From Bacteroidales bacterium (lineage in GTDB: Bacteria; Bacteroidota; Bacteroidia; Bacteroidales; Tenuifilaceae), in NCBI GenBank assembly GCA_003818205.1, contig RPRQ01000039.1:1-44671 (forward strand): a DNA stretch of 44,671 nucleotides, written 5' to 3'. This document shows, in pieces, positions 1,995-43,541 of the stretch. The position numbers and the translations under genes are program-made. Position 1 is the stretch's first letter; each line of letters starts with the position of its first letter. The notes under the pieces are model-generated. The model was not told where the DNA came from. It saw nothing but the letters and a program-made list of their open reading frames with translations, and ran no database searches.

Positions 1995-2060
1995 CTGTAA
2001 ATTATGTAAATTTTTAAAAGAATATTGTAACGATATTACACCTTTTGCGCCGTATATTTA
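1995..2060 (+). promoter_or_regulatory. 21-bp direct-repeat promoter, copy A (csbD-like gene)
   Basis: The upstream half-site is CTGTAAATtATGTAAA (1995-2010). The second half-site has TTGTAAC with its TGTAA register exactly 21 bp after the first. The -7 element TATATTTA lies at 2053-2060, in the same position as in the other six copies. The predicted transcript start is near 2067, giving a leader of about 33 bases to the ATG at 2100. Confidence 0.7.
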
Positions 2061-2099
2061 ATCCGATTAAAATTTCTTATTGCACTAAAACCATAAATC

Positions 2100-2285
2100 A
2101 TGAATACTAATGTAATAGGATATTGGAACGGTAAGAAGGAAAAGCTCAAACAAATATACCCAACGATTTCTGATGAGGATTTGAACTTTCAGGAAGGAAA
2201 AGAAAAGGAGATGATGGAAATGTTGGGTTATAAACTAGGAAAGACGAGAGAAGAATTAAATAGCATTATCTCATCTATTAAATAA
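2100..2285 (+). CDS. CsbD-like general stress protein
   Basis: A 61-residue acidic/basic helical protein. It begins MNTNVIGYWNGKKEKLKQ and contains DEDLNFQEGKEKEMMEMLG and LGKTREELN, the Bacteroidota form of the CsbD-like fold (usually 55-70 residues). CsbD was named as a sigma-B-controlled stress protein in Bacillus; its biochemical role is not known. No signal peptide is seen, so it is cytoplasmic. It lies directly under promoter copy A and upstream of the first HMA-AraC gene, with 56 bases between them and no clear terminator, so the two may be co-transcribed. Confidence 0.8.
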   Translation: MNTNVIGYWNGKKEKLKQIYPTISDEDLNFQEGKEKEMMEMLGYKLGKTREELNSIISSIK

Positions 2286-2341
2286 TACCTCACTCTTTTT
2301 TATTTATTTATTAAATTAGTTCAATTTGATGACTAAACATT

Positions 2342-2902
2342 ATGATGATCCAGGTTAGAAATATGGAGAGCGATCGTTGTATAGCAACGGTAAAGAGCGA
2401 GTTAAATAAACTTGGCCTTCGTTATAAAAGAGTGGAATTGGGCGAGATAGAATTGATCGAGAATATATCGGCAAAAAAAATATTACTCATCGACAATGCG
2501 TTAAGGCCTACTGGGCTTGAATTGATGAAAGATAAGAATGCTCAGCTAGTCGAAAACATTAAGGTTTCAATCAGTCAATTGATAAACCTTTCCGAAGAGT
2601 TACCTAAACCGAAAACTTCCGAATTTATAAGCAAAAAAGTTAATTCCGATTATTCTTATCTAAGCAATATCTTCTCAAGCATTCAAGGAATTAGTATTGA
2701 GAAATATATTATAATTCGAAAAGTTGAACGCATTAAGGAATTGCTAGTTTACGGCAAATTAAGCCTTGTTGATATTGCTTTTAAGCTGCATTACAGCAGT
2801 GTTGCTCATCTATCAAATCAGTTTAAAAAGGTAACCGGGCTAACCCCTTCTTTTTTCAAAATACTTCGCAAAAAGAAAGATTCCAATTCACAGAATGTGT
2901 GA
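2342..2902 (+). CDS. HMA-AraC regulator 1 (one metal-site Cys missing)
   Basis: The N-terminus (1-65) resembles the beta-alpha-beta heavy-metal-associated fold, as MMIQVRNMESDRCIATVKSELNKLG then VELGEIELIENI. The C-terminus (about 105-180) is an AraC-type helix-turn-helix domain with LSLVDIAFKLHYSSVAHLSN and FKKVTGLTPSFFK. Compared with the paralogue at 3904, the first Cys of the CxxC motif is Ser (S10), leaving only C13. The start at 2342 is chosen because it gives the same distance to the CxxC site as in the paralogue. This small regulator type is common in Bacteroidota; its inducer is unknown. Promoter copy B overlaps its stop codon, and it is a candidate regulator of the seven-copy promoter set (inference). 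Confidence 0.85.
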   Translation: MMIQVRNMESDRCIATVKSELNKLGLRYKRVELGEIELIENISAKKILLIDNALRPTGLELMKDKNAQLVENIKVSISQLINLSEELPKPKTSEFISKKVNSDYSYLSNIFSSIQGISIEKYIIIRKVERIKELLVYGKLSLVDIAFKLHYSSVAHLSNQFKKVTGLTPSFFKILRKKKDSNSQNV

Positions 2903-2962
2903 ATGATGTAACTCCTCTTTGCAATTGTGTAATAATACTACATTATTGAAGGCATAACTTTA
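2897..2962 (+). promoter_or_regulatory. 21-bp direct-repeat promoter, copy B (lmo0937-like gene)
   Basis: GTGTGAATgATGTAAC (2897-2912) overlaps the stop codon of the upstream regulator gene. The second half-site TTGTGTAAT follows in the 21-bp register, and the -7 element TAACTTTA is at 2955-2962. The predicted transcript start is near 2969, 20 bases before the ATG at 2989. Confidence 0.8.
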
Positions 2963-2988
2963 CGCAAGTTTATTTCAATTTCATCATT

Positions 2989-3153
2989 ATGATATCAAGA
3001 GTGCTATTCATAGTCAGTTTAATACTGATTTTGGTTTGGTTGGTTGGGCTTTATGAGTTTTCTGGAGATTGGAAAATTCATATTTTTCTCGCAACAGCTA
3101 TTATTATCCTAGTAATTAGGCTGCTATATAATAAATCGTTGATGAAATTTTAA
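2989..3153 (+). CDS. lmo0937/DUF5670-like small membrane protein
   Basis: A 54-residue protein beginning MISRVLFIVSLILILVWLVG. It has two hydrophobic segments (about 4-21 and 31-46) joined by a short GLYEFSGDWKIH loop and a basic end (NKSLMKF). The layout matches the lmo0937-family two-helix proteins that Bacteroidota carry in many copies, often with stress genes. Function is unknown. The start is supported by the short distance from promoter copy B. Confidence 0.75.
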   Translation: MISRVLFIVSLILILVWLVGLYEFSGDWKIHIFLATAIIILVIRLLYNKSLMKF

Positions 3154-3162
3154 GCATTACTA

Positions 3163-3275
3163 TTTATATGGTAACTATTCAGCAATACTATGAAATATAA
3201 ACCACGGAGACACGGACCTGCCGGTAGGCAGGGTAGGCAGGTCCGTGTCTCCGTGGTGAATGGTTACTTTATATG
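3163..3275. mobile_element. MITE-like element, GTAACTATTCAG family, copy 1, 8-bp TSD
   Basis: The 97-bp element 3171-3267 starts GTAACTATTCAG and ends TGAATGGTTAC. It is flanked by perfect 8-bp direct repeats TTTATATG (3163-3170 and 3268-3275), a target-site duplication. Inside is a perfect 22-bp inverted repeat (3201-3222 with 3236-3257) built from ACGGAGACACGG words, which would form a very stable hairpin. It encodes nothing. Confidence 0.8.
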
Positions 3276-3373
3276 ATAATTATCAATTAAAAAAGTGGAG
3301 TCAGTAAACCACCAGAAAAAACAGGGCGTATCTGAAAAGCCAAACGAGTAGGAAATATTTAATATTCATACTT

Positions 3374-3844
3374 ATGAAAAATTTTGCAATAACATCATTA
3401 CTATTAATTTGTTTGCTTTCCTTCGGATATGCACAAGATTATAGAACAGGCATTGGTTTAAGGGGAGGATTTGCGAATGGATTAACGATAAAGCATTTCA
3501 TGGGAGGAAGCACTGCATTTGAAGGCATTATCGCTAGCCGATGGAAAGGTCTTGAGTTGACTGGTCTTTTTGAATTTCATAACCAAGCCTTTCAATCCGA
3601 CAGATTGTATTGGTATATTGGTTTTGGCGGACATGTTGGCTTCTGGAACGGTGATAATACGAGATGGGGTACAGATGGAACGAGCTATACGGTTGCAGGC
3701 ATTGATGGGATATTAGGTTTAGAATATAACTTCAGAGAGATTCCATTTAACATTGGTATCGACTGGAAACCTGCTTACAATTTTGTAGGTTACTCAGGCT
3801 TTTGGGCTGATGGTGGCGCACTTTCAATACGTTATATTTTTTAA
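3374..3844 (+). CDS. Small outer-membrane beta-barrel protein, function unknown
   Basis: A 156-residue protein with a clear signal peptide (MKNFAITSLLLICLLSFGYAQ, cleavage after about residue 20). The mature part is rich in Gly and aromatic residues with alternating polar/nonpolar strands and ends in SIRYIF, a typical C-terminal beta-strand with a terminal Phe. It therefore looks like a compact (6-8 strand) outer-membrane barrel. No ligand or enzyme motif was recognised. It is followed by a hairpin terminator and then by HMA-AraC regulator 2. Confidence 0.7.
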   Translation: MKNFAITSLLLICLLSFGYAQDYRTGIGLRGGFANGLTIKHFMGGSTAFEGIIASRWKGLELTGLFEFHNQAFQSDRLYWYIGFGGHVGFWNGDNTRWGTDGTSYTVAGIDGILGLEYNFREIPFNIGIDWKPAYNFVGYSGFWADGGALSIRYIF

Positions 3845-3848
3845 AGTT

Positions 3849-3875
3849 AATAGTGTCAGATATTCTGGCGCTATT
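3849..3875 (+). terminator. Terminator after the small barrel gene
   Basis: An 11-bp stem with two G-U pairs (AATAGTGTCAG with CTGGCGCTATT) and a 5-base loop, followed by ATTTTATT, lies 4 bases after the stop codon. Confidence 0.65.
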
Positions 3876-3903
3876 ATTTTATTGATATTAAAAAATCCAA
3901 ACC

Positions 3904-4464
3904 ATGAAACTCTATATAAAAAATATGGTATGTGGTCGTTGTATAACGAATGTAAAAGCCGAATTGGACAAAATGGGTATTGAATACAGTTTAGTCGAAT
4001 TGGGCGAAGTAACAATTATGAAGAAACTTTCTTCAATACAGCACAAACAGCTTTTTAATGCATTAAAAAAGAAAGGATTTGAATTAATTGATGCACTTAA
4101 AAATGATATTATAGAGAGATTAAAGGTTGCTATCGCTCATTTGGAGAGCAACTCCGATGAAAACTTAAAAACAAGCTATTCAGATTATATAAGCCTTAGC
4201 GTAAACGATAATTTTATTTATCTAAACACATTGCTAGCAGATATTAAAGGAACTACCATTGAGAAATTTATTATTAAACATAAAATTGAAATGGTTAAAG
4301 GATTACTACTAAACAAATCGCTTAAACTAGATGCTATAGCACTCAAAATGCGCTATAGCAATGTTAATAAGCTGTCGGTTCAGTTTAAAAGCATAACCGG
4401 CTTAACACCCTCTCATTTCAGAATGCTCCAGCAAATGGAGAACAAAAATTTTAAGAGTAACTGA
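3904..4464 (+). CDS. HMA-AraC regulator 2 with intact CxxC
   Basis: Same architecture and length (186 residues) as the regulator at 2342. The N-terminal HMA-like fold starts MKLYIKNMVCGRC with both metal-site Cys (C10, C13) and continues with VELGEVTIMKKL. The C-terminal AraC helix-turn-helix has LDAIALKMRYSNVNKLSVQF and ITGLTPSHFRM. The CxxC pair makes metal or thiol-redox sensing plausible (inference). Its own upstream region lacks the seven-copy promoter motif. With regulator 1 it is the only transcription factor of its type in the window. Confidence 0.87.
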   Translation: MKLYIKNMVCGRCITNVKAELDKMGIEYSLVELGEVTIMKKLSSIQHKQLFNALKKKGFELIDALKNDIIERLKVAIAHLESNSDENLKTSYSDYISLSVNDNFIYLNTLLADIKGTTIEKFIIKHKIEMVKGLLLNKSLKLDAIALKMRYSNVNKLSVQFKSITGLTPSHFRMLQQMENKNFKSN

Positions 4465-4519
4465 TTCATTAATCAATAGGAAAAAAACAAAAAAATTAAA
4501 GTATAAGTAACGAATCAGT
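4460..4519 (+). terminator. Weak dyad after HMA-AraC regulator 2
   Basis: ACTGATTCATTA (4460-4471) pairs with TAACGAATCAGT (4508-4519) with one mismatch across a 36-base AT-rich loop, overlapping the stop codon. A T-rich stretch follows. It is a possible terminator, not a strong one. Confidence 0.35.
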
Positions 4520-4551
4520 GATAATTTTAATAATTTTAACTTTACAGAAAA

Positions 4552-4704
4552 GAGTTTGTCTGAAAAGCCAGAAAAAACTTAACCACAAAGTTCACGAAGT
4601 ACATCACGAAGTTTACAAAGTATATATATTCAATACTTTAACTTTGTTTCCTTTGTGTAACCTTAGAGTTCTTCGTGGTTAAGTTTGACTTTTGAAACAG
4701 CCTC
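4552..4704. repeat. Imperfect intergenic dyad repeat
   Basis: The ends are GAGTTTGTCTGAAAAGCCAG and, read on the other strand, GAGGCTGTTTCAAAAGTCAA, a degenerate terminal inverted repeat. Inside, ACTTAACCAC (4577-4586) pairs with GTGGTTAAGT (4675-4684), and between them are CACGAAG/ACAAAG-type words. It probably is an old MITE-like insertion; no clean target duplication remains. The rest of the 4465-4822 gap shows only AT-rich leader sequence for the gene at 4823. Confidence 0.5.
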
Positions 4705-4822
4705 TTTAACAGGGTGAATAGTTCCAATAATTTGGTATAAGAATGCAAGTTTTCTATATCTCAGCTGTTTTTACATAAAATGATTTATATCTTTCTTAAC
4801 AACCCGCTTTATCAGTTCTCTG

Positions 4823-5743
4823 ATGAGAAATAAAATACACATATTTTCACTAATGTGTATATTGCTTGGGGTTAGCTCTGTCTATTCTCAGGATACTCTG
4901 AATAATCCATCAATGGCAGTATCAACATTAAACATGTTTCGCGAACCAAGCTATATTCTCTTTGGAAGCGGTATAGGAAATATGAACCCATTGATGTTTG
5001 AAGGTGATATTGTACCATATTACCTATTAAGTTTAAAAAGAAACATCAAATGGGGGATTCAATTGTCCCCTCGTATTATAGTTCGAATGGAGAATATGTA
5101 TTCGCACCCAGTTCGTACACCATCATTTATACCAACCATAACTTTTTTTTACCATTTAATTGACTCTAAAAACGAGAGTAGAGATTTATTTACCTATTGC
5201 AGCTGGTATCATCATTCGAATGGGCAGGAAGGTGATTTTTATGAGACCGATAGCATAGCTATTAATACAACATCAGGCAGTTTCTACTCAAACTGGATAG
5301 AGGGTGGCGTTTTCCTTTCCCGACCTGATCGAAACCTTTCCAATACATTTAATTATATTAAACTTTCAATGGCATACAATTATATGCTAAATAATGAGCT
5401 GATAGGTAATTATGGACAGTTACGTTTTTTTGCAGATTTTCAGAGCACCATTAACCTTTCAAAAGCATTTAGAATATTTAGAAGTTCAGATAATAACCGC
5501 AGCGTTATATTAAGCCAATCGGTCCGCTTCGGGTGGATTGCTGATAATCTTTCAGATTCAAAAACAATAGATAAAAATCGGTTAATATTCCGCTACACGC
5601 TATCTTTTAAACCTTCGTTTTTTAAAGACGTTAGCCTTTTCTGCCAGTACTACTACGGGCAGGATTATTACAACATCAACTTTGGCAAAACTCTCAATGT
5701 AATTCGTTTTGGAATATCATCAAAAATTAAAATCTTTAATTAG
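4823..5743 (+). CDS. Outer-membrane barrel resembling phospholipase A (OMPLA)
   Basis: A 306-residue protein with a signal peptide (cleavage near VYSQ, residue 23) and amphipathic strands throughout. YHHSNGQ at residues 129-135 resembles the OMPLA active-site strand YxHxSNG, with H130 and S132 in the H-x-S spacing of the catalytic pair. N157 in FYSNW could match the third residue, but it is 25 residues after the Ser rather than 12 as in E. coli PldA. The family hydrolyses phospholipids misplaced in the outer leaflet. The call is tentative: it could be an unrelated barrel with a similar strand. A MITE inserted exactly at its stop codon, but the target duplication keeps the frame intact. Confidence 0.55.
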   Translation: MRNKIHIFSLMCILLGVSSVYSQDTLNNPSMAVSTLNMFREPSYILFGSGIGNMNPLMFEGDIVPYYLLSLKRNIKWGIQLSPRIIVRMENMYSHPVRTPSFIPTITFFYHLIDSKNESRDLFTYCSWYHHSNGQEGDFYETDSIAINTTSGSFYSNWIEGGVFLSRPDRNLSNTFNYIKLSMAYNYMLNNELIGNYGQLRFFADFQSTINLSKAFRIFRSSDNNRSVILSQSVRFGWIADNLSDSKTIDKNRLIFRYTLSFKPSFFKDVSLFCQYYYGQDYYNINFGKTLNVIRFGISSKIKIFN

Positions 5744-6054
5744 CATTCAATGTCGTTTAATTAGAGTCTGTCTATAAAGTCAGAAACTCTAAATCAAATT
5801 GAATAATGAACAAGGATTAGCTTCACTGAGCTCACTTTGTTCGGTTGCCTTCGGCAATCTTAAATCGTTGTTCCCTGCCTCGCCGGCAGGCAGGCTTGTT
5901 CTTAAATCAAAAAAAAAATCATATTATGGACAGACACTAATTAAGGCTTTTATAATTGACGCTTTCAGGTCTTCCGACCCTGAAAGGTCAATCAAACTGG
6001 TTAACCTGACTGTCAGCGTTTTCAACCTTAAGTAAACGACATTGAATTAGCATT
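5738..6054. mobile_element. MITE-like element, CAATGTCGTT family, copy 1, 10-bp TSD
   Basis: The 297-bp element 5748-6044 begins CAATGTCGTTTA and ends TAAACGACATTG. It is flanked by perfect 10-bp direct repeats AATTAGCATT (5738-5747 and 6045-6054). The left duplication contains the stop codon of the barrel gene. Inside is a second, nested inverted repeat (AGTCTGTCTATAA near 5766 against TTATGGACAGACACT near 5924) and a GCCTGCCGGCGAGG-type hairpin. An open frame across it is repeat-derived and not a gene. The rest of the 5744-6337 gap holds promoter copy C and the leader of the next gene. Confidence 0.85.
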
Positions 6055-6112
6055 GCAAAGAATATCCTTTTATCATCCACATGCTATACCCTACAATGCT
6101 ATACCCTACAAT

Positions 6113-6178
6113 GTGTGAATGATGTAACATTTTAATAAAGTTGTGTAACACCTTTCGTGATTAAGAAACTCACCTTTG
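6113..6178 (+). promoter_or_regulatory. 21-bp direct-repeat promoter, copy C (exported protein)
   Basis: GTGTGAATgATGTAAC (6113-6128) is followed by AGTTGTGTAAC in the 21-bp register, then the -7 element CACCTTTG (6171-6178). The predicted transcript start is near 6185. This is one of the two best copies and is nearly identical to copy D at 36024 over both half-sites. Confidence 0.85.
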
Positions 6179-6337
6179 TATTACCCATCAGTTGAACTTT
6201 TATAATAAGTTTTGCAACGGTTATTAAAGTGCAATATGGAACTGAAATCTCAACTGTTTTCATGTTTTTTCACAAATACAAATACAATGAAAAAAATAAT
6301 ATCATTCCACGCTGCAAAAGGATCTACGGTAAGGATT

Positions 6338-7174: not shown

Positions 7175-7218
7175 CCTAATTTAATAAAAGTGAATTATTT
7201 TCAAAATTGATAAGAATA

Positions 7219-7421: not shown

Positions 7422-7425
7422 TAAT

Positions 7426-7504: not shown

Positions 7505-7560
7505 TTTCTTTCATTCTGTAATAATGGATTCGAATATTTACAATATAAACATCAAATAAA

Positions 7561-8088: not shown

Positions 8089-8093
8089 AAACT

Positions 8094-9305: not shown

Positions 9306-9366
9306 GTTGAACGAGTTATAAGTTGTAAAACGCTACGTTTTATAATGGATTCTTTAATAGCATGTT

Positions 9367-33086: not shown

Positions 33087-33440
33087 TTAAAGTCCCTTTA
33101 TCTTTACCAAATCCAGCCCCATAAGCACTTTCTCTTTATCTGACATATCGCCTATAATCCGACGGAATGGAAGAGGAAGTTTTTTAATCAATGTTGGGGC
33201 TGCAATTATCTGCTCATCTTTTGCTAAACTTGGTTTTTTATATAGGTCAATTACCTCAAGATCATATTGACCTTCAAGATATTCATCGCAAATCTTTTTT
33301 AGATTTGTTATGGCCATAGTTGATCGAAATGTTTTACCGGTTACGTATAAACGCAAAATATATTTCTCCTTTTCTGATCCAGAAATTGTCTGATCAAACT
33401 TTTCCGTTGAACTTTTAGCTTTTGTTTTTTTCTCTTTCAT
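33087..33440 (-). CDS. kaiB: KaiB-family protein 1
   Basis: A thioredoxin-like KaiB domain (about 27-115) with YILRLYVTGKTFRSTMAITNLKKICDEYL, DLYKKPSLAKDEQIIAAPTLIKKLPLP and RRIIGDMSDKEKVL. The ATG at 33440 is chosen because a rare perfect Shine-Dalgarno (GGAGG) lies 7 bases before it; a GTG at 33458 is inside that leader. KaiB binds the CI ring of KaiC after a fold switch. A charged N-terminal tail of about 25 residues precedes the domain. Confidence 0.88.
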   Translation of the reverse strand: MKEKKTKAKSSTEKFDQTISGSEKEKYILRLYVTGKTFRSTMAITNLKKICDEYLEGQYDLEVIDLYKKPSLAKDEQIIAAPTLIKKLPLPFRRIIGDMSDKEKVLMGLDLVKIKGL

Positions 33441-33489
33441 AATTATTCCTCCATTCACATATTGTAATTATAAATCAGCTAATAATATG

Positions 33490-33670
33490 AATTAAGGGTT
33501 GAAATTTATATCTTTCTTATAAACTTGGTGATAATTAGTGTCTTAGTGGCAAAAATAAAAAATGCCACAAAGACACAAAAGCACAAAGATTCACTAAGAA
33601 AATATTTTACATATTGCTAATAATTAAACCATTAACAAAATATACGTAATTGTTTTTTCAACCCTTAATT
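33490..33670. repeat. Inverted-repeat element between the two kaiB genes
   Basis: Perfect 15-bp inverted repeats AATTAAGGGTTGAAA (33490-33504) and TTTCAACCCTTAATT (33656-33670) bracket 151 bp. The right arm covers the kaiB2 stop codon. Inside, CTTAGTGGC and CACTAAG with CACAAAGACACAAA words form a second stem. It may be an inserted repeat or an mRNA structure that lowers expression of kaiB1 relative to kaiC and kaiB2 (inference). No target duplication was found. Confidence 0.6.
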
Positions 33671-34012
33671 CGCATTCATAGACAATAAATTCAATCCAAC
33701 AAGAACACGTTCCGTATTCGAAAGATCACCGATTATCTTACGAACAGGCACTGGTAATTTTCTTACCAACGTTGGTAAGGCAAGAATCTGATCTTCGGCA
33801 CCCAGCTGTGGATTTATCAAAAGGTCAATAACTTCAATAGAATATTTACCCTTTAACTGCTCTTCGCAAATCTTTTTTAGATTTGTAAATGCAGTAAGGG
33901 CTTTGGGGGTTTGTCCGGCAACGTATAGACGAAGCACCCACTTATCATCTACTTTTTTTGTAGATTTCTTTTCTTTATTTTTTTTCTCCGAATTCTCTTT
34001 TATTGCTTTCAT
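33665..34012 (-). CDS. kaiB: KaiB-family protein 2
   Basis: A 115-residue KaiB domain protein ([45 protein letters not shown]) with a lysine-rich N-terminal tail. It is clearly similar to KaiB-family protein 1 but not recently duplicated. It begins 16 bases after kaiC and ends in the 15-bp inverted repeat. The pair may have different partners, for example KaiC and another target. Confidence 0.9.
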
Positions 34013-34028
34013 CGAATACTTCTTTTAA

Positions 34029-35762
34029 TTATTTTTTCAACTTCTTAACTGTATTCTTTTCAGTCTTAGCTTTTCTGCTTTCTGCCATTTTAATTTTGTC
34101 TTGTTCCAACCGTTTAATTGTGTCTTGCTCTGTTTTTATCATTTTAATGGCTTCTGATTCTTCCGATTCAAAATCGGTTTGCAGAGTAGCAATTTGAGCC
34201 TCCAATGCCTTGCGTTTTCTTTCTATTTCTCGTTTCTTTTGCTCAATATCTTGCTTACGCGTCAATAGTTCGGCATTTTCATTTGCTTCTTGGGCTATAC
34301 GAGCTGAACCGGTTAACACTCCACTTGCCCCAACATAAACCTCACGTAATTCTACACCATGGTCAGTTAAAATGAACTCACGAATTTGATTAGAGTGAGC
34401 CATACCGCGCGATTTAAGTACATACATTCCTCTGTTCCGTTCACCGCTTAATTCTATATCACGAAGTAACAACCAGGTATCAATTAACGATGATATTCCA
34501 ACATCTGTTTGCTCTAATATGCCTCCATTTGAATTTAAGTTGGTAAACAATGCTGTTATTTGATTTGACTTTAGGTAATCAACAATTCGCATTAACATTA
34601 TTTTTACTTCAATATCTTTTTCACCCATGGTGAAAGTATTTATTGGATCTAGAATTACAATACTAGGTTTGAATTCATTAACAGCTTTGTGAGTTGCAGC
34701 TAGGTGCATTTCCAATCCATAAAATGTTGGACGGGTTGCTTGGAATTGTAATAATCCTTTCTTTACCCAAGGTTCTAGTTTTATACCAATAGAAAGCATA
34801 TTACGCATTAGCTGGTTTGGCGATTCTTCGAAACAGAAATACAAAACACGCTCACCACGTTTACAAGCCGCTTCAGCAAAGTGTGCCGCTACGCTTGTTT
34901 TTCCTACTCCGGCAGTACCGGAAATAAGTACAGTGCTACCACGGTAATACCCTTTTCCCTCAAGCATATTATCGAGCGCAGTAATACCGCTTGAAATTCT
35001 TTCATTTGATATTTGATGTTTTAATCCTAAGGAGGTTACAGGTAATATTGAAAAACCATTTTCATCAATCAGGAATGGATACTCATTAGTGCCATGCATT
35101 GAACCACGATACTTAACAACTCGTAAACGACGCGTAGAATTCTGTTCCGTTACCCGATGGTCGAGAATAATAACGCAATCGGAAACATATTCCTCCAAAC
35201 CTTGTCTTGTTAAAGTTTCTTCTCCACGCTCGCCGGTTATGATTGCCGTAACACCTTTAACTTTTAACCAGCGGAATAAACGCCTTAGCTCAGCACGTAA
35301 AATCAGCTGGTTTGGCAATCCTGCAAATAGCGATTCAATGGTGTCTAATACAACACGTTTGGCTCCAATAGAATCAATTGCATAACCGAGTCGTACGAAT
35401 AAACCTTCTAAATCGTATTCACCAGTATCGTCTATTTCACTTCGCTCAATATGAACGTGGTCAAGTGCAATTTTTTTATGCTTAACAAGATATTCCAAAT
35501 CGAAACCGAGTGAAGCAACATTTTTGGTCAATTCTTCATTCGTTTCTTCGAATGACATAAACACACCCGGTTCGTTAAACTGCGTTGCACCACGTATAAG
35601 AAACTCCATTCCAAAAAGTGTCTTTCCACAGCCTGCCCCTCCACATATAAGTGTTGGTCTGCCAGTAGGCAATCCACCGCCAGTTATTTCATCGAATCCC
35701 TGAATTCCCGTTGGAGACTTTGGGAGAGTTTTATTTAAGATTTTACTTTCTTCCTTTTTCAT
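34029..35762 (-). CDS. kaiC: KaiC-family double-RecA ATPase with coiled-coil tail
   Basis: A 577-residue protein with two RecA/KaiC domains. CI has Walker A GGAGCGKT (41-48) and catalytic E72/E73; CII has GTAGVGKT (282-289) and E312/E313. The segment that carries the phosphosites in cyanobacterial KaiC (T426, S431, T432) is QTDVGISSLIDT here, with T419, S424 and S425, so phosphorylatable hydroxyls remain. Residues from about 490 form a charged coiled coil of about 85 residues in place of the short KaiA-binding tail, and there is no kaiA nearby. Upstream on the minus strand a weak -7-like TATATTTC lies at 35832-35839. Outside cyanobacteria such systems have been tied to stress resistance rather than a proven clock. 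Confidence 0.93.
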   Translation of the reverse strand: MKKEESKILNKTLPKSPTGIQGFDEITGGGLPTGRPTLICGGAGCGKTLFGMEFLIRGATQFNEPGVFMSFEETNEELTKNVASLGFDLEYLVKHKKIALDHVHIERSEIDDTGEYDLEGLFVRLGYAIDSIGAKRVVLDTIESLFAGLPNQLILRAELRRLFRWLKVKGVTAIITGERGEETLTRQGLEEYVSDCVIILDHRVTEQNSTRRLRVVKYRGSMHGTNEYPFLIDENGFSILPVTSLGLKHQISNERISSGITALDNMLEGKGYYRGSTVLISGTAGVGKTSVAAHFAEAACKRGERVLYFCFEESPNQLMRNMLSIGIKLEPWVKKGLLQFQATRPTFYGLEMHLAATHKAVNEFKPSIVILDPINTFTMGEKDIEVKIMLMRIVDYLKSNQITALFTNLNSNGGILEQTDVGISSLIDTWLLLRDIELSGERNRGMYVLKSRGMAHSNQIREFILTDHGVELREVYVGASGVLTGSARIAQEANENAELLTRKQDIEQKKREIERKRKALEAQIATLQTDFESEESEAIKMIKTEQDTIKRLEQDKIKMAESRKAKTEKNTVKKLKK

Positions 35763-36023: not shown

Positions 36024-36089
36024 GTATGAATGATGTAACTTTTATAAAAAGTTATGTAACACCTTTCACTATAGTTGTATTCACCTTTG
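36024..36089 (+). promoter_or_regulatory. 21-bp direct-repeat promoter, copy D (MCE operon)
   Basis: GTATGAATgATGTAAC (36024-36039) is followed by AGTTATGTAAC in the 21-bp register and the -7 element CACCTTTG (36082-36089). The predicted transcript start is near 36096, leaving a leader of about 100 bases. The rest of the 35763-36195 gap is AT-rich, and its left part must carry the divergent kaiC promoter. Confidence 0.85.
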
Positions 36090-36195: not shown

Positions 36196-36990
36196 ATGAT
36201 TAATAACAATACTAAAAAGTATATTTTCTCAAGAGGAATTGACGACTACTTTACGGGTGTTCACAAAGCCTATAAGTTTACTTCCCTTTTTTTTAAGGAG
36301 GTAATTAAAAAGCCCTTTCACATTCGTGAGGTAATTAACCAGTGCTTTGAGATAGGCATTAGAGCATTACCATTGATTACCCTTACCGGTTTTATTGTTG
36401 GTATTGTTTTTACAAAACAATCGCGCCCCTCGTTAGAGGATTTTGGGGCAACATCGTGGCTTCCCTCCCTTATTGGAATTGCAATAGTTAGAGCATTAGG
36501 ACCACTTGTAACTGCGCTCATTTGCGCAGGTAAGGTTGGTTCAAGCATAGGTGCTGAACTAGGCTCTATGAAAGTGACCGAACAGATTGATGCCATGGAG
36601 GTATCGGCAATTAATCCATTTAAATATTTAGTCGTTACCCGTGTTCTAGCCACTTCCATTACTATTCCTATTCTTGCTTTGTATTGTAGTTGCGTTGGGC
36701 TATTTGGCTCTTACATAAATGTACATACCGAAGAAACCAGTAGCATTATCAGTTTTTATCAAGACGCATTTTCAACCATCTCCTTCCTTGATATTTTTAC
36801 AGGTGTAGTTAAGTCAATCGCTTATGGTTTAACCATTGGTTTGGTTGGGTGCTACAAAGGGTATAATGCTACTCAGGGTACACGTGGCGTTGGCAAAGCA
36901 GCGAATCAAGCTGTAGTGCTTTCCATGTTTCTGATATTTATTGAGGAAGTTATTATTGTCCAGGTTTCCAATTGGATTAGATATTTTTAG
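36196..36990 (+). CDS. mlaE: MlaE-family permease of an MCE lipid transporter
   Basis: A 264-residue integral membrane protein with the MlaE permease pattern: IGIRALPLITLTGFIVGIVF, LGPLVTALICAGKVGSSIGAELGSMKVTEQIDAMEV and IAYGLTIGLVGCYKGYNA. It forms the membrane part of the Mla/MCE phospholipid transporter between inner and outer membranes. It is first in a three-gene operon with the ATPase and the MCE protein. The operon is preceded by promoter copy D. Confidence 0.92.
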   Translation: MINNNTKKYIFSRGIDDYFTGVHKAYKFTSLFFKEVIKKPFHIREVINQCFEIGIRALPLITLTGFIVGIVFTKQSRPSLEDFGATSWLPSLIGIAIVRALGPLVTALICAGKVGSSIGAELGSMKVTEQIDAMEVSAINPFKYLVVTRVLATSITIPILALYCSCVGLFGSYINVHTEETSSIISFYQDAFSTISFLDIFTGVVKSIAYGLTIGLVGCYKGYNATQGTRGVGKAANQAVVLSMFLIFIEEVIIVQVSNWIRYF

Positions 36991-36994
36991 ATTT

Positions 36995-37774
36995 ATGGAT
37001 AAATCAAGATTACAGCATATTATAAATACTGATGAATCGGTTATCTCAATCAAGGGATTATATAAATCGTTTGAGGATTTGGAGGTTTTAAAGGGTATTG
37101 ACTTTAATCTTTTTAAGGGCGAAAATATTGCTGTACTCGGTAAATCTGGTACTGGAAAATCGGTTTTAATAAAAATTATAGTTGGACTACTTAAACCCGA
37201 TGAAGGTGAAGTGTATGTGTTGGGACAACAGGTCGATAAGCTAAATCGCAAGGAATTAGATGCACTACGGTTACGGATTGGATTTTCGTTTCAACACAGC
37301 GCATTGTACGACAGCATGAATGTTTACCAGAATCTTGCATTTCCGTTAACCATGAACATAAAAAACCTAAGCAAAAAAGAGGTTAATAATGCGGTGGATG
37401 AAGTACTTGATGCTGTTGGCTTAATGGATAAGTTAAATCAAATGCCATCGGATCTTTCAGGTGGTCAAAAGAAACGAATTGGAATTGCACGCACATTAAT
37501 ACTTAAACCCGAAATCATGCTGTACGATGAACCCACATCGGGTTTAGATCCAATTACAAGCACTGAAGTTATTGCGCTTATCAATGAAGTGCAACAGCAG
37601 TATAACACTAGCTCTATCATTATAACACACGACCTCACATGCGCAAAAAATACAGGAAATCGAATAGCTATGATGCTTGATGGACAGTTTCTAAGAATTG
37701 GGAAATTTGAAGAGGTATTCGATTCAAACGATGAAGAGGTAAAAGGATTTTTTAATTACAATTTTATACAATAA
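36995..37774 (+). CDS. mlaF: MlaF-family ATPase of an MCE lipid transporter
   Basis: From the ATG at 36995 (MDKSRLQHIINTDESV) the protein has 259 residues; a TTG extension to 36941 would overlap the permease and is unlikely. The Walker A GKSGTGKS, signature LSGGQKKRIGIARTL and Walker B IMLYDEPTSGLDP are intact. It powers the permease encoded 4 bases upstream and is followed by the MCE gene after 3 bases. Tight spacing indicates one transcript. Confidence 0.92.
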   Translation: MDKSRLQHIINTDESVISIKGLYKSFEDLEVLKGIDFNLFKGENIAVLGKSGTGKSVLIKIIVGLLKPDEGEVYVLGQQVDKLNRKELDALRLRIGFSFQHSALYDSMNVYQNLAFPLTMNIKNLSKKEVNNAVDEVLDAVGLMDKLNQMPSDLSGGQKKRIGIARTLILKPEIMLYDEPTSGLDPITSTEVIALINEVQQQYNTSSIIITHDLTCAKNTGNRIAMMLDGQFLRIGKFEEVFDSNDEEVKGFFNYNFIQ

Positions 37775-37777
37775 GCC

Positions 37778-38746
37778 ATGAATAAAACATCAAATAAACG
37801 AGCAGTAATAGTCGGCCTATTTATTTTTATAGGACTTCTATTTCTTATAGCAGGAATCCTTATTGTGGGTAATCTTCGCAATACTTTTAAAGATAAAATG
37901 AAAGTGGTTTCACTTTTTGATGATGTAAACGGTTTGCAGAAAGGGAATAACATTTGGTTCTCCGGTGTGAAAATTGGTACAGTGTTTAACCTTCAATTTT
38001 ATGGAGAATCACAGGTGAAAGTAATTTTGAATATTGAAACAAGCGCACAGCAATACATTCGTAAGGATTCAAAAGTTAAAATAACCAGCGATGGAATTAT
38101 TGGGAAAAAGATTTTAGTTATTTATGGAGGAACATCAAAATCCAACGAAGTGCAGGAAGGTGATACCCTAGAGGTGGAAAAGTCGTTCACATCAGAGGAT
38201 ATGATAAACACACTTCAGGAGAATAACAAGAATATTTTAGCGATCACCACCGATTTTAAAGTCATTAGTAAGAAGTTAGTTGCAGGTGAAGGAACAATTG
38301 GGAAATTCCTTAACGATAATTCAGTTTATTCAAACATAAATGCAGCAACAATATCATTGCAAAACGCTTCGGAAAAGGCACAAAAACTGATTGGCTCGCT
38401 TGCTGCTTTCAGCGAAGGGCTCAATAAAAAAGGCACACTGGCAAATGAATTGACTACCGATACAATAATCTTTAATTCGATTAAAACTACTGTTTTGCAA
38501 CTACAGAGCATTGCAGATACCGCAGCTGTATTTATTGCAAATCTCAAACAAACGGCAAGCAATCCCAATTCTCCAATCGGAGTTTTACTTCACGATAAAG
38601 AATCAGGTGCTCGTTTGAAAGAAACGATAAAGAATCTGGAGAGCAGTTCCAAAAAATTAGACGAAGACCTTGAAGCTGCGCAACACAATTTTTTGCTTCG
38701 AGGCTATTTTAAAAAGAAAGCAAAATCAAGTAATGCGGATAAATAA
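37778..38746 (+). CDS. mlaD: MlaD/MCE-family lipid-binding protein
   Basis: A 322-residue protein with an N-terminal membrane anchor (about 9-29) and an MCE domain (about 40-115, with DDVNGLQKGNNIWFSGVKIGTV and SDGIIGKKILVIYGG). A long helical C-terminal part follows, as in MCE proteins of Bacteroidota. It would form the periplasmic hexameric ring that passes lipids to or from the permease. Co-regulation with the DUF748 protein (promoter copy G) suggests a joint role in envelope lipids. Confidence 0.9.
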   Translation: MNKTSNKRAVIVGLFIFIGLLFLIAGILIVGNLRNTFKDKMKVVSLFDDVNGLQKGNNIWFSGVKIGTVFNLQFYGESQVKVILNIETSAQQYIRKDSKVKITSDGIIGKKILVIYGGTSKSNEVQEGDTLEVEKSFTSEDMINTLQENNKNILAITTDFKVISKKLVAGEGTIGKFLNDNSVYSNINAATISLQNASEKAQKLIGSLAAFSEGLNKKGTLANELTTDTIIFNSIKTTVLQLQSIADTAAVFIANLKQTASNPNSPIGVLLHDKESGARLKETIKNLESSSKKLDEDLEAAQHNFLLRGYFKKKAKSSNADK

Positions 38747-38750
38747 CAAT

Positions 38751-38816
38751 GTATGAATAATGTAACTTAATAACATAATTGTATAATTAATATAAAGTTA
38801 AAACCCATCATATTTG
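38751..38816 (+). promoter_or_regulatory. 21-bp direct-repeat promoter, copy E (ECF sigma gene)
   Basis: GTATGAATaATGTAAC (38751-38766) is followed by TTGTATAA in the 21-bp register and the -7 element CATATTTG (38809-38816). The predicted transcript start is near 38823, only about 16 bases before the TTG start codon at 38839. Confidence 0.75.
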
Positions 38817-38838
38817 AATTCTAATTAACCATCGAGCG

Positions 38839-39330
38839 TTGACAAAAGTAGAATTTCAAAACGAGCTAATTAGCCTTCAGGATTGCTTGATGAGGTATGC
38901 GTATAGTTTAACCTCTGATAATGAAAATGCTAAAGATTTGCTGCAATCAACAAATCTAAAAGCACTCGCTTATTGCAATCAGTTTAAGGATAATACAAAT
39001 CTAAAAGCTTGGACTTTTACAATAATGAAGAACACATTTATTAATATCTACCGAAAAGCCAAAAAGCAGAATACTAATTATGAAATAAACGAGAACCTGC
39101 TTTTGATGAACAGCAAATCAGAAAACAATAGACCTGATTCTCAGTATTCTCATAATGAAATCAATAAAAAGATTGAGGAGTTGGATGAAAATTTCCGTAT
39201 TCCATTCCAGATGCATACTTCTGGTTATAAGTATATAGAGATTGCCGAAAAACTTAATTTAAATCTTGGAACAGTAAAAAGTAGGATTTTCCTTTCACGA
39301 AAGAAATTGATAGATCAACTGAGCAGGTAA
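38839..39330 (+). CDS. ECF-type sigma factor, TTG start
   Basis: A 163-residue sigma-70 family protein. The sigma-2 region is MRYAYSLTSDNENAKDLLQSTNLKALAY with KAWTFTIMKNTFIN, and sigma-4 is IPFQMHTSGYKYIEIAEKLNLNLGTVKSRIFLSRKKL. An in-frame stop at 38815 leaves no ATG before the conserved N-terminus, so TTG 38839 is the start; this matches the usual family N-terminus and the promoter E transcript start. The usual VQETFLKAL is LQSTNLKAL, a change in the -10-recognition helix. There is no anti-sigma gene adjacent, so control is probably through the promoter. Confidence 0.85.
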   Translation: MTKVEFQNELISLQDCLMRYAYSLTSDNENAKDLLQSTNLKALAYCNQFKDNTNLKAWTFTIMKNTFINIYRKAKKQNTNYEINENLLLMNSKSENNRPDSQYSHNEINKKIEELDENFRIPFQMHTSGYKYIEIAEKLNLNLGTVKSRIFLSRKKLIDQLSR

Positions 39331-39529
39331 GAAGTACACGTGAATTTAATTAGTGTTTGTCTTTAAAGTAAATATTGACTGCTTTCGATGTTGAATCTAT
39401 AATCCATAAAAATGCAGATATAAAGCATATATTTCTTGACAAACCCATCGTAACAATTTAACCAAATAAACTCTTGGGAAAGTCGGAAACTCGAATATAA
39501 ATATTCATCGAGTAAAAAATAAATTACAA

Positions 39530-39952
39530 GTGAAAAAATATCTATTCCTGAAAAGTATACTTATAATTCTCCTTTTATCAATAGCTCTGAGATCCATGGC
39601 TCCTGAAATAAAAGCCTTTTTCATTTTTACATCAGAACCAATAAAACCTTATGACAGACTGATTAAAGCAGTGGTTCATGTTGAAAGTCGAGGCGATACG
39701 TTAGCATATAATCTGATAGAAGAAGCAGCTGGAGCATTTCAAATCAGACCCATTAGACTTCGCGATTATAATCAGAGAACAAATAAAAATTACAAATTAA
39801 AAGATCGCTACAACTTTCGTATTTCGAAAGAAATATTCCTTTACTATGCTATGTTAGTAGGCTTTTCGGATTATGAAAAAATCGCTAAGGATTGGAACGG
39901 ATCGGGAAAAGAAACACTTCAATACTGGGAAAAAGTCAAATTGCAACTATAA
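39530..39952 (+). CDS. Transglycosylase-like (lysozyme-fold) exported protein
   Basis: A 140-residue protein with a GTG start and an N-terminal hydrophobic helix (MKKYLFLKSILIILLLSIAL). The domain shows LIKAVVHVESRGDTLAYN (candidate catalytic Glu in VESRGD), AAGAFQIRPIRLRDYN and DWNGSGKETLQYWEKV, which resemble the ES, GxxQI and YW elements of SLT-type lytic transglycosylases. It is shorter than most enzymes, so it may be a minimal form. It has no copy of the seven-member promoter upstream. Confidence 0.7.
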   Translation: MKKYLFLKSILIILLLSIALRSMAPEIKAFFIFTSEPIKPYDRLIKAVVHVESRGDTLAYNLIEEAAGAFQIRPIRLRDYNQRTNKNYKLKDRYNFRISKEIFLYYAMLVGFSDYEKIAKDWNGSGKETLQYWEKVKLQL

Positions 39953-40090
39953 TCTACAATTCGAAAGAATACAAGTTTTTCAATAGTAATAAATTCAGAA
40001 AATGCAATTTTGATTGCACCAAAAGTTCAGAATTAGATACTTCATTAAAAAATAAAACTGTGTAAATTATTAATCTATTAATTAAACAAC

Positions 40091-40279
40091 ATGGCAAAAT
40101 ATTCAAAAAAAGCTCAAGAAAAAATTGAGGAAGTAATGCATGAATTTAAGGAAGGAACCTTAAAGTCGGGCAAAAATGGTAAAAATGGCAAAGTAACAAG
40201 CAGAAAACAAGCTATTGCAATTGGAATTAGTGAAGCAAAAGAAGCTGGATTAAAAGTGCCTTCCAAAAAAAACAGCTAA
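40091..40279 (+). CDS. DUF6496-like small basic protein
   Basis: A 62-residue basic protein (MAKYSKKAQEKIEEVMHEF, then KSGKNGKNGK and RKQAIAIGISEAKEAG). The pattern matches the small DUF6496 proteins that many bacteria carry. A nucleic-acid or stress role is often suspected but not shown. It is monocistronic and followed by a strong terminator. Confidence 0.75.
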   Translation: MAKYSKKAQEKIEEVMHEFKEGTLKSGKNGKNGKVTSRKQAIAIGISEAKEAGLKVPSKKNS

Positions 40280-40341
40280 TTATTGAATTTTTTCCCGATC
40301 CTCTTTCGACAACCAATGAAAAGGTTATCGAGTATATTACT

Positions 40342-40379
40342 AGCGTAATGTTAAGTATGAATTATTACGCTTTTATTTT
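40342..40379 (+). terminator. Rho-independent terminator after the DUF6496 gene
   Basis: AGCGTAAT (40342-40349) pairs with ATTACGCT (40364-40371), followed by the T-rich tract TTTATTTT. This is the clearest intrinsic terminator in the window. Confidence 0.8.
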
Positions 40380-40403
40380 AACCGACGGGTTAACCCGTCG
40401 GTT
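40380..40403. repeat. Perfect 24-bp palindrome between convergent genes
   Basis: A perfect palindrome centred on GGGTTAACCC lies directly after the terminator and 90 bases before the end of the convergent DUF748 gene. It could act as a terminator for the minus strand or be a small dispersed repeat. Confidence 0.6.
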
Positions 40404-40492
40404 ATAGATATAAATACTATTACGTCATAGTATGATTAATATAACACTAGTTTTTTGGCTAATCAGAAAAGACTTCCATTAAACGAAATCTC

Positions 40493-42823
40493 TTAAAGTT
40501 CACTATCATTTTTCTGACGCTCCTTTTTAAATTTCTTTCTCGGAACCTCATTATTTAATTCATTCATCTGCTGGTAGGCTTTGATTAAAAATTTAGGGAA
40601 TTCTCCCTCATATTCTATTTTATAGAATGAAAAACCATTGTAGGGTATTACGTTTTCGTCACTAAGAATTCTTAATTGACCTTCTACTTTTCTTTTCTTA
40701 AAATAGGAAACAAAAACATTCTTTCTTTCTTTTTTGAGATTTTCAAATTTGACGTTAACGGTAGTTGAATCAATAAGTCTGGTACATTTTTCCTGAATGG
40801 TAAATACAATAGAGTCTTTTATCATTCGGTTTAAATAATGGACAAACGAAGAATCCTTTACTGACATTTTATCAACCTTTTCTGAATCTGCAGCGCTGAA
40901 TGATTGGAGTTTTTTATTTTTAGTCAACAGAAAATACCTTTTCTTGGCTTCAAAAAACAGGATGTACTCCTTTTCTTTTATTTCATATTGTTGAGGTAGA
41001 ACAGTAATGGACGCTTCAGGTGTATCTGCGAGAAAATCTGCCATCCTTTTAATAAACACTTCCTGTTCATTCCGAAGAGAGCTAAGTCGCATCTCCCACT
41101 TCAATGTGAGCGATTTTTCAATCTCATTTTCAATATTGTCAACTTCCATTCTGTAAGGAGTTGTAGGAGGTTTTATGAAAATATTACCAAGAACATCAAA
41201 TATTACATCCCAAAAATGAAATTTGGGATCCCTTAAATTCCCAGTTATCGGAATTTCGTAATCGATTACGTTACCACGTTCCCGTATAAAAAACATTATT
41301 AACGGCATGGGTATCCATTTATTATCTTTATTTCTTAGCCGCTTGGTTACTCGTGGATCAATAATAATCAGATGATTATCGCTTTTTATCCTTCCGTTTC
41401 TCACCTTCCATGCACCCTTAAGTTCAAGAGTACCCCTGTCTAAGGGGAAAGAAGTATATGAAATAGTGTAAGGATTAAACATGGAAACTGGTAGTTTCTG
41501 AAGATTGTAATGCAAATCAAACTCTCCGCTATCCTTTGGGTTTACGCTGAGGTCCACCGATAAATTTCCATATGGCTTTAAATCTGATTTAAACGATATC
41601 GATACCCGATTACGATTTTTATCAATCGAATCTGAAATTACAGTTAAAGGGCTTAATTCCAAAGCGAACTTTTCACTTGTCGAAAAGTCATTGAATTTTA
41701 CATCTCCTTTGTAAATTACCAGGCGGTTAATCTTGTAATCACTTTCAAAAAAATTCTTCGATAGCACTTTTACATATTTGGCTATTTCAATAACAAGGTT
41801 AAACTTAGATTTATCAGCGTTAACGCCTGCTACATTAGCTCCATCCTTTCCAAACATTGTTTGTACATTATCTAAATAGTCGTAACGTTCATATTTGAAG
41901 TAAGGGTGGCTGATAGCTATTGAATCGAAAAGATATTTATGATTCTTTGGATTAAGTTCAATTATTGCTACAGCTAATTTGTCAAAAGAAGCATAATCCT
42001 CCTTAATATTTTTTCCGAAATGAAATTCATTAATTGCCAGCTGACCCGAGGCAGAAAGATTTTCTTGGTCTTTGAAATTTCCTTTCGCATTTATTTCAGC
42101 ATCAAGGTTTGCATTAAAACCTCCATAGTTCGTTAAGGCTTTGAGATACTGTCCGATAATATTCAAATCTAATTTATTAGAGATAAAAGCGAAACGATAA
42201 TCCAAATTTTTAAAATTAATTGTAAAATTGCCTTTTATATCACCGCTTCCTGTGCCTGGTAAAAAGGAAAACTTTGCGGCAATTGTATCTGCATTCCAAC
42301 GTTTCCCAGTGCTTTCAATATTCACACTTTTTATAGAATAGTTTATTGGAATCAACTGTTCATGGTAATAGAATTCCCCATCGATTATTTTTATACCAAG
42401 AATATTAAAATGGACAGGTGCTTTGGTAGTATCGGAATTTGAGGAGAATTTCTTTATAAGATCGTTAAAATTGAGATCCTTTTTGTTTTGAATTATTGTT
42501 CCGCGTGGGTGATTTAATGTGATTTTGCTTATTTCATATGTTTTTGAGAATAGTTTAAGCATGGCAATATTTGCACCTACCCCATCGGCTGAAAAAAAGA
42601 TGCTATCACTCTTTAGCTCATAAATTTTAAGGTTCCTAAAATAAATATAACCTGTAAACGGATTAACATACGCCCAACTCATTTTAATTTGCCGACCAGT
42701 GTATTTCTCGTCATACCTATGAACTAAGTATTTTGTGATGGGTGAAATAAATATAATCACGACCAATACAAAAATTAAAATGGAACTAATAAAGATTATT
42801 AGGGGTCTTTTAAGTTTGTGCAT
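40493..42823 (-). CDS. DUF748/AsmA-like envelope protein
   Basis: A 776-residue protein with one N-terminal membrane helix (about 9-29) and a long beta-rich periplasmic part. SWAYVNPFTGYIYFRNLKIYE and NHPRGTIIQNKKDLNFNDLI are typical of DUF748, a relative of AsmA. Proteins of this type are thought to bridge the periplasm and carry lipids (established for related AsmA-like proteins, inferred here). The start codon lies about 17 bases after the predicted transcript start of promoter copy G. The nearest partner by regulation is the MCE operon. Confidence 0.82.
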   Translation of the reverse strand: MHKLKRPLIIFISSILIFVLVVIIFISPITKYLVHRYDEKYTGRQIKMSWAYVNPFTGYIYFRNLKIYELKSDSIFFSADGVGANIAMLKLFSKTYEISKITLNHPRGTIIQNKKDLNFNDLIKKFSSNSDTTKAPVHFNILGIKIIDGEFYYHEQLIPINYSIKSVNIESTGKRWNADTIAAKFSFLPGTGSGDIKGNFTINFKNLDYRFAFISNKLDLNIIGQYLKALTNYGGFNANLDAEINAKGNFKDQENLSASGQLAINEFHFGKNIKEDYASFDKLAVAIIELNPKNHKYLFDSIAISHPYFKYERYDYLDNVQTMFGKDGANVAGVNADKSKFNLVIEIAKYVKVLSKNFFESDYKINRLVIYKGDVKFNDFSTSEKFALELSPLTVISDSIDKNRNRVSISFKSDLKPYGNLSVDLSVNPKDSGEFDLHYNLQKLPVSMFNPYTISYTSFPLDRGTLELKGAWKVRNGRIKSDNHLIIIDPRVTKRLRNKDNKWIPMPLIMFFIRERGNVIDYEIPITGNLRDPKFHFWDVIFDVLGNIFIKPPTTPYRMEVDNIENEIEKSLTLKWEMRLSSLRNEQEVFIKRMADFLADTPEASITVLPQQYEIKEKEYILFFEAKKRYFLLTKNKKLQSFSAADSEKVDKMSVKDSSFVHYLNRMIKDSIVFTIQEKCTRLIDSTTVNVKFENLKKERKNVFVSYFKKRKVEGQLRILSDENVIPYNGFSFYKIEYEGEFPKFLIKAYQQMNELNNEVPRKKFKKERQKNDSEL

Positions 42824-42846
42824 ATAACTTATATAATGATTTTATG

Positions 42847-42912
42847 CAAAGTTCAGCGAGTCTGATGAAAAGAGTATTACACAACTTTTAGAATTAGTTA
42901 TAAGATTCACAC
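42847..42912 (-). promoter_or_regulatory. 21-bp direct-repeat promoter, copy G (DUF748 gene)
   Basis: On the minus strand GTGTGAATcTTATAAC (42912 down to 42897) is followed by AGTTGTGTAAT in the 21-bp register and the -7 element GAACTTTG at 42854-42847. The predicted transcript start is near 42840, 17 bases before the ATG at 42823. It is the only copy on this strand. Confidence 0.75.
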
Positions 42913-43120
42913 ATTAAACCCGAATTACGCATTAGGAGGCTGTTAAGCCGAACTGATGTGTAAATGAGGGTTAACCCCGATTTAGAAATAGTTTTAATTC
43001 ACAGAATGCGAATTAATTACTATTTCTTAATCGATTCAGCATTTTCTAATACTGAATTTGGGTTAAAGCAAATAAGTCTAAACGCTTATGTTAAGGCATT
43101 AGATAAAAGTTGAAAAGACT

Positions 43121-43413
43121 AAATTAGTGGTTATTCGACAAAACTAATGGATAGTTGTAATTCTACAAGTGCAGGGTTTTATCGGTGATCTCTTGAAAAC
43201 CTTACTCACTTTTTATTCATTGGCTTTCTTAATCCCAGAGGGATTATATGTTTATAGAAAATATCTATCCCTAGGAACATTCGACCCCAGCCGGGGTCGA
43301 ACCATAAATGGGCATTGTTTCTATAAACATCCGACCCCTCTGGGGTCAATATCGGAGCAAGCCCAAATTATCTCTCTCCCCTTCCATACCTTTTGTCGAA
43401 TAACCAAATTAGT
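43121..43413. mobile_element. MITE-like element, GGTTATTCGACAAAA family, 8-bp TSD
   Basis: The 277-bp element 43129-43405 has perfect 15-bp terminal inverted repeats GGTTATTCGACAAAA and TTTTGTCGAATAACC. Perfect 8-bp direct repeats AAATTAGT flank it (43121-43128 and 43406-43413). Inside are GACCCCAGCCGGGGTC and a TGTTTATAGAAA/TTTCTATAAACA stem. The open frame running over it is not a gene. The rest of the 42824-43621 gap holds promoter copies G and F and an uninformative AT-rich stretch with a degenerate dyad (42912-43068). Confidence 0.85.
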
Positions 43414-43475
43414 TGATGGCATAATAAACCTCTCTCAAAACCCACCAACAGAACTGATTCTTCATTGGATAAGAT

Positions 43476-43541
43476 GTGTGAATTATGTAAAATATTTCAA
43501 AAGTTCTACAACACTTATTATTTCAAAGAGACCGACCTTTG
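43476..43541 (+). promoter_or_regulatory. 21-bp direct-repeat promoter, copy F (CheB-like gene)
   Basis: GTGTGAATtATGTAAA (43476-43491) is followed by the weaker AGTTCTACAAC in the 21-bp register and the -7 element GACCTTTG (43534-43541). The predicted transcript start is near 43548, giving a leader of about 74 bases. Confidence 0.7.

Follow-up and report, generated by a model that had tools for sequence, protein, structure and literature searches.

The window analysed here, a stretch of 44,671 nucleotides from a Bacteroidales bacterium of the Tenuifilaceae (contig RPRQ01000039.1; G+C content 35.4%), contains seven copies of a 66-bp element in which a 21-bp direct repeat is followed, at a set distance, by a promoter -7 element. 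Such a layout raises the question of which protein reads the repeat, and of how a promoter built in this way might work. The architecture and its fixed spacing recur well beyond the window, and the sites are linked to genes encoding a family of small proteins, here called HMA-AraC.

Architecture of the promoter sites

The seven copies lie where the first-pass annotation had placed them, each on the strand and with the -7 octamer attributed to it. A matrix made from all seven and run over both strands of the window gives the copies 47-69 bits and the runner-up place 9.5 bits, which rules out chance; in a leave-one-out scan every copy ranks 4th to 7th among all positions of both strands, which places it within the group of six training copies or directly after it. 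The distance of 21 bp between half-sites and the offset of 27 bp from half-site to -7 element, both claimed for every copy, hold in seven of seven. Three copies have a degenerate half-site: the second one at 43476 (TACAA) and 38751 (TATAA), the first one at 42912 (TATAA).

Site 1 (1995..2060, plus strand) comprises the activator repeat at 1995-2037 and the -7 element TATATTTA at 2053-2060, with a predicted transcript start at about 2065; a 61-residue open reading frame (ORF, 2100-2285) comes next, which resembles CsbD-like proteins by eye and has no CsbD match in Pfam, and then an HMA-AraC gene (2342-2902). Site 2 (2897..2962, plus), with TAACTTTA at 2955-2962, precedes a 54-residue ORF (2989-3153). 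The claim that every copy sits 5' of a start codon stands, while the leader lengths given with it are refined, since these two short ORFs come first behind sites 1 and 2 and give predicted leaders of about 35 and 22 nt, respectively. Site 3 (6113..6178, plus; CACCTTTG at 6171-6178) has the top score of the window copies, and the ORF behind it (6212/6236-7174) has no Pfam match. Site 4 (36024..36089, plus) carries the same octamer, CACCTTTG, at 36082-36089 and precedes genes for MlaE, an ABC ATPase and an MlaD-type protein (36196-38746); a KaiC-type ATPase gene and two with a KaiB domain (33087-35762, minus) run divergently from it. Site 5 (38751..38816, plus; CATATTTG at 38809-38816) precedes an ECF-type sigma factor gene (38839-39330), site 6 (42847..42912, minus; GAACTTTG at 42854-42847) a DUF748 gene (40493-42823), and site 7 (43476..43541, plus; GACCTTTG at 43534-43541) a gene with a CheB methylesterase domain (43622-44218). 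The MlaE, ABC ATPase, MlaD, ECF sigma, DUF748 and CheB assignments are Pfam-supported. Between 9367 and 24772, histidine kinases, response regulators, a SpoIIE phosphatase with a receiver domain, an ABC transporter and a Usp gene follow one another in a run; no site lies directly 5' of these genes.

A model of the upstream 45 bp only, from which the -7 element was excluded, was searched against the 5.17-Mb genome and found 27 places at E < 1e-3. A weak 28th site (C120:8228; E 0.85 by the repeat model) was added by a matrix scan of about 194 kb of contigs picked by repeat-model matches, window included; genome-wide statements on this organism refer to the model searches and to that scanned sequence. 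On C100, another weak match of the repeat model (E 0.8), the matrix scan gave nothing above 7.2 bits. Among the 21 new sites outside the window, TTTG or TTTA stands at offset 63 in 18 and at offset 62 in two, the remaining one having TTCA at the -7 place, so that the fixed -7 distance proposed from the window extends to sites found without it. The genome's sites share the consensus GTGTGAAT-n-ATGTAAC-T, an A/T-rich middle, AAAAGTT-n-TGTAACAC, a variable stretch and then CTCACCTTTG. Had genome-wide hits not been enriched 5' of genes, the promoter reading would have failed by the annotation's own standard; 27 of the 28 have an overlap of under 20% with ORFs of at least 100 residues, as do 19% of positions drawn at random from those contigs. 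Moreover, 24 of the 28 fall on four contigs that make up 2.3% of the genome, hence the regulon is clustered.

As a direct repeat, the matrix has its highest autocorrelation at 21 bp (0.58). An inverted-repeat reading was rejected, the reverse-complement match reaching 0.41 at centre 22, below the value for the direct shift; this partial dyad symmetry could still be used by another dimer. A mobile repeat was likewise discarded, as the flanks of the window sites (20 bases before and 54 after each) look unrelated by eye.

Linkage to HMA-AraC genes

The candidate regulator of the sites is most likely HMA-AraC, a protein of about 190 residues that joins an Atx1-like fold to an AraC-type DNA-binding domain and would bind the repeat through the latter. 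The first HMA-AraC gene of the window (2342..2902, plus; 186 residues) encodes a protein that has SDRC where CxxC would stand in its metallochaperone-like N-terminal region, and an HTH_18 domain at the C terminus (Pfam, 2.9e-14); this product shares 50% identity with the copy on contig C102. The second (3904..4464, plus) keeps the CxxC intact as CGRC and is counted as having no site near it: site 2 ends 942 bp upstream, and an ORF (3374-3844) lies between. In all, the genome has four copies, on C66 (two), C72 and C102, which are the three contigs richest in sites. A site lies within 1 kb of three of these four genes and of none of the 15 other HTH_18 genes (19 in the genome; p = 0.004).

Outside this genome, relatives were sought with an alignment of the four copies as query, and the best 80 of 490 confirmed relatives were taken as loci on their genome contigs. 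Nearly all belong to Bacteroidota, among them Flavobacterium, Labilibaculum, Prolixibacteraceae, Chitinophaga, Mucilaginibacter and Lutibacter, and two to Ignavibacteria. The matrix of the window's genome found 165 matches above 16 bits in 72 of the 80 loci, and ten column-permuted matrices found 0.0 on average; as a further control, 23 LytTR loci of the window's genome gave two matches, which are taken to be one C31 site counted twice where L003 and L023 overlap. Merging of overlapping matches reduced the 165 to 163 sites, and the dropping of three near locus ends left 160 for the offset counts. The -7 element lies at offset 62-63 in 155 of the 163; TTTG or TTTA is found at offset 63 in 133 of the 160 and at offset 62 in 20 (153/160 with one base of play).

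A first gene, defined as an ATG ORF of 60 residues or a GTG/TTG ORF of 120 residues within 400 bases, follows 148 of the 163 sites and is missing behind 15. The predicted leader has a median length of 31 nt and does not exceed 60 nt in 117 of the 148, within the 400-base cut that the rule imposes. The largest cluster of first genes outside this genome is the regulator itself (53 loci, single linkage having also pulled in at least one histidine kinase from the window's genome); the second, of 15 loci, includes ice-binding-type proteins, one member having been tested against Pfam. On C102 (L056, L057), a site precedes each of the genes for four large, apparently secreted proteins that cluster with an ice-binding protein; they look like a family that expanded together with its promoter. 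Further Pfam-supported genes behind sites in other loci encode Usp, Band 7/SPFH, DUF6600, ice-binding and ferritin-like (Dps type) proteins, and CsbD is clear in G257 (3.2e-15) and weak in C72 (0.0013). To judge from gene names, then, the genes behind the sites appear to be of a stress and envelope type, and the term stress regulon is used in that sense.

Because the 80 loci were selected by protein, their site density alone is no proof of linkage, and the converse search was therefore made from the repeat. With the protein ignored and under strict filters, the repeat model found a site in 27 of 296 genomes of the phylum (E <= 1e-3), with two genomes of the same order among the matches listed; the protein profile found a homologue in 139 of the same 296 (E <= 1e-35). 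Homologues occur in 26 of the 27 site-bearing genomes against 113 of the 269 others (Fisher p = 2.4e-8, genomes being taken as independent despite kinship). A site lies within 1 kb of a homologue in at least ten of the 27 genomes (0.15 expected) and, once the window's genome is set aside, in at least nine of 26 (0.11 expected). Up to three best sites were also inspected in each of 30 loci; as these loci overlap and one is from the window's genome, no count is drawn from them. In G011, G016 and G280 the sole homologue is on another contig than all sites found, and the site of G280 has no -7 element. Conversely, at the cut-off no site was recovered in 113 of the 139 homologue-bearing genomes, nor in 11 of the 23 with the closest homologues; in five of those 11 (G143, G061, G151, G171 and G033) weaker sites of 16-22 bits adjoin the gene. 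The model, being trained on one genome, misses diverged operators.

The candidate regulator and the place of its putative operator

In the AlphaFold2 model of HMA-AraC (22 rows, pLDDT 86.1), a linker helix connects a beta-alpha-beta-beta-alpha-beta domain to the AraC DNA-binding domain. The order E H E E H E within residues 2-62 is that of a ferredoxin-like fold, and Foldseek matches this head to the metal chaperones Atx1 and GolB (TM of target 0.70-0.73, with E only 0.07-0.15) and the tail to the YesN, AraC, MarA and SoxS domains. Pfam HTH_18, the two-HTH domain of AraC/XylS proteins, is recognised in 22 of 22 aligned members, and Pfam HMA in three of 22 (best E 0.007). At the position of the chaperone CxxC, 109 of 127 homologues have SxxC and 18 have CxxC, so that most lack the metal-binding pair of an HMA domain; a change between the two states occurred at least three times on a FastTree tree, as a minimum. 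The model thus suggests an Atx1-like fold for the head, and the claim made here is confined to the fold, metal binding being left aside.

Homologues of 44-47% identity over nearly the full length occur in copper and metal-efflux plasmid clusters of Mucilaginibacter robiniae, Hymenobacter monticola and Aureibacter tunicatorum. They differ from the proteins described above in having metal-efflux or copper genes as neighbours and in keeping the CxxC, which is present in all three. In Aureibacter the regulator gene and a Cu/Zn efflux transporter gene flank a 21.8-bit site of the same architecture; near the Mucilaginibacter and Hymenobacter plasmid genes no site was found, the best matches scoring 0.5 and -6.0 bits. 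In G124 (L193) and G070 (L194) a site precedes the gene for a small HMA-domain protein that adjoins a CxxC-type HMA-AraC gene. The sites of Aureibacter, G124 and G070 precede differing genes, hence the target varies and the adjoining regulator family is constant. In Runella rosea, whose homologue is of the SxxC type, a 32.7-bit site faces a divergent gene of the ice-binding family at about 300 bases. Taken together, these cases are read as a single regulator family that shares one operator architecture and has some members linked to metals and others to stress, the direction of change between them being presumed.

The position of the site was counted for 127 homologues, after those missing either end of the profile and exact duplicates had been dropped, on the same strand and within 400 bp of the open frame, contig ends being able to conceal sites. 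A site above 12 bits is found at 78 of the 127, upstream in 56 and at the 3' end in 22; none is found at 38 of the 109 SxxC-type and 11 of the 18 CxxC-type homologues. The 56 upstream sites make autoregulation of the HMA-AraC gene probable.

Of the 22 sites at the 3' end, 12 lie in one identical register, with the gene's final sense codon as the first bases of the site and the stop inside it, and thus the final residue of the protein (V or L in the listed loci) is encoded by operator bases. In the window, site 2 begins at the last sense codon of the regulator, GTG, and includes its stop; the gene at 2342 and the C72 copy both end in AAT GTG TGA (N V stop), of which the final six bases are the first six of the site. 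The same register is seen in L106, L115, L125, L131, L132, L142 and L054 (C72) as well as at 2897. In six further homologues that stay under the score limit, the best match falls in this register; four of them are CxxC types, and by eye their half-sites have drifted towards TTACA/CACAA.

An autoregulated gene may be a target only, and some other regulator might use the site, with the HMA-AraC gene merely one of the genes it controls. The upstream position in 56 of the 78 cases is what a mere target would show, and G192 has two good sites with a -7 element (L156, L206) and no HMA-AraC homologue at E <= 1e-15. In 22 of the 78, however, the site lies at the gene's 3' end, where the gene is linked to the site and is not its target; besides, CxxC-type relatives have the same architecture before different genes, and near diverged homologues the best match holds its register while the letters drift. 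That another protein is the reader is therefore improbable.

A LytTR response regulator was the first candidate examined, for such proteins bind direct repeats about 21-22 bp apart, and it was dropped on gene linkage. The 21-bp period fits, one LytTR gene (C31:84389) has a site within 1 kb, and the half-site on the complementary strand (AAGTTACAT) contains the GTT core of the LytTR consensus. That consensus is nonetheless a partial fit only, 21 of the 22 LytTR genes of this genome have no nearby site (a 23rd match, a fragment of 26 positions beside the same C31 site, being left out of the count), and the HMA-AraC linkage repeats across genomes, which leaves LytTR little probability against HMA-AraC as the regulator.

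A probable activator-dependent promoter

The housekeeping promoter of Bacteroidota has a TTTG element at -33, and the first-pass annotation had suggested that the repeat replaces it. In agreement with this, no conserved TTTG is present at site positions 31-45 of the 160 external sites, and the part of that promoter which the sites do have is a -7 element ending in TTTG or TTTA at a fixed distance. PMC9723704 places the -7 box TAnnTTTG at -12 to -5; on that alignment one half-site would span about -69 to -55 and the other about -48 to -34, and at -12 the 160 external sites have C in 47% of cases and T in 20%. The sites thus resemble the housekeeping promoter in having TTTG where its -7 box lies, and differ from it in that -12 is more often C than T and that an activator repeat stands where the -33 TTTG would be.

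An alternative, ECF-type sigma factor that reads all 66 bp, with the TGTAAC half-site as its -35 box, would accord with the ECF-type gene behind site 5 and with the commonest -7 octamers being CACCTTTG or CATCTTTG and not TAnnTTTG, but it is hardly to be expected: about 40 bp are conserved, with the second half-site 21 bp further up, which exceeds the footprint expected of a sigma factor; the CGT that the proposed -10 box of Flavobacterium psychrophilum ECF promoters holds (PMC9723704) is absent here; and no first gene among the 148 that follow sites in the 80 loci falls into a cluster with the window's ECF protein. It was dropped on the first two of these points.

Activator-dependent promoters of a comparable layout are familiar from the AraC family. 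At araBAD, as at class II promoters of AraC/XylS proteins, the activator site is a pair of direct half-sites spaced by about 21 bp, of which the proximal one adjoins the -35 region. The sites described here share with araBAD a direct repeat of this spacing and a candidate regulator with an AraC-type DNA-binding domain, and their position (-69 to about -34 from the predicted start) is close to that of E. coli araI1-araI2. They differ from it in having a Bacteroidota -7 element instead of -35 and -10 boxes, stress-type genes and, in a subset, an operator over the regulator's stop codon, while the candidate regulator has a metallochaperone-like N-terminal domain of about 65 residues where AraC has a sugar-binding cupin. 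SoxS, MarA and Rob are small AraC-type activators of stress regulons in enterobacteria and bind one asymmetric site as monomers; HMA-AraC is likewise small, of AraC type and seemingly tied to a stress regulon, and differs in its 21-bp direct repeat and its additional sensor-like domain.

I therefore consider it probable, at about 0.82, that the sites are activator-dependent promoters run by HMA-AraC. Two protomers would bind the direct half-sites GTGTGAAT-n-ATGTAAC and AAAGTT-n-TGTAACAC, 21 bp or two helical turns apart, the proximal half-site ending near -34 and replacing the -33 box. Once bound, the regulator would be able to retain RNA polymerase, with the housekeeping sigma factor, at a -7 element that is weak (CACCTTTG as against TAnnTTTG). 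In the simplest reading this would be class II activation, in which the proximal protomer substitutes for the -33 contact on a weakened promoter. The input may be stress, or a metal or a thiol. Many regulator genes carry such a site at what would be their own promoter and, in a subset, the last codon and stop of the gene would open the operator of the next one.

Narrow literature searches, in the portions of the sources they reached, returned no published description of the site or the regulator and no general stress regulator of Bacteroidota, a search by motif letters being weak evidence of absence. The balance tips slightly towards an unrecognised one-component stress regulon, scattered over Bacteroidota and some Ignavibacteria, in which HMA-AraC proteins related to copper-linked CxxC regulators, with the first cysteine missing, would switch on protective genes. 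They would do so through a rigid promoter with a 21-bp repeat in place of the -33 box; in a subset, the closing bases of the regulator's frame would double as the first bases of an operator, the register being locked over long evolutionary distances.

To sum up, HMA-AraC is a concrete candidate for a stress regulator of Bacteroidota, with an operator precise enough to allow prediction of the regulon in other genomes of the phylum. It joins a metallochaperone-like fold to an AraC activator, and one form of its operator includes a stop codon in fixed register. The sites themselves would represent a natural activator-dependent promoter module, which might serve as a genetic part.
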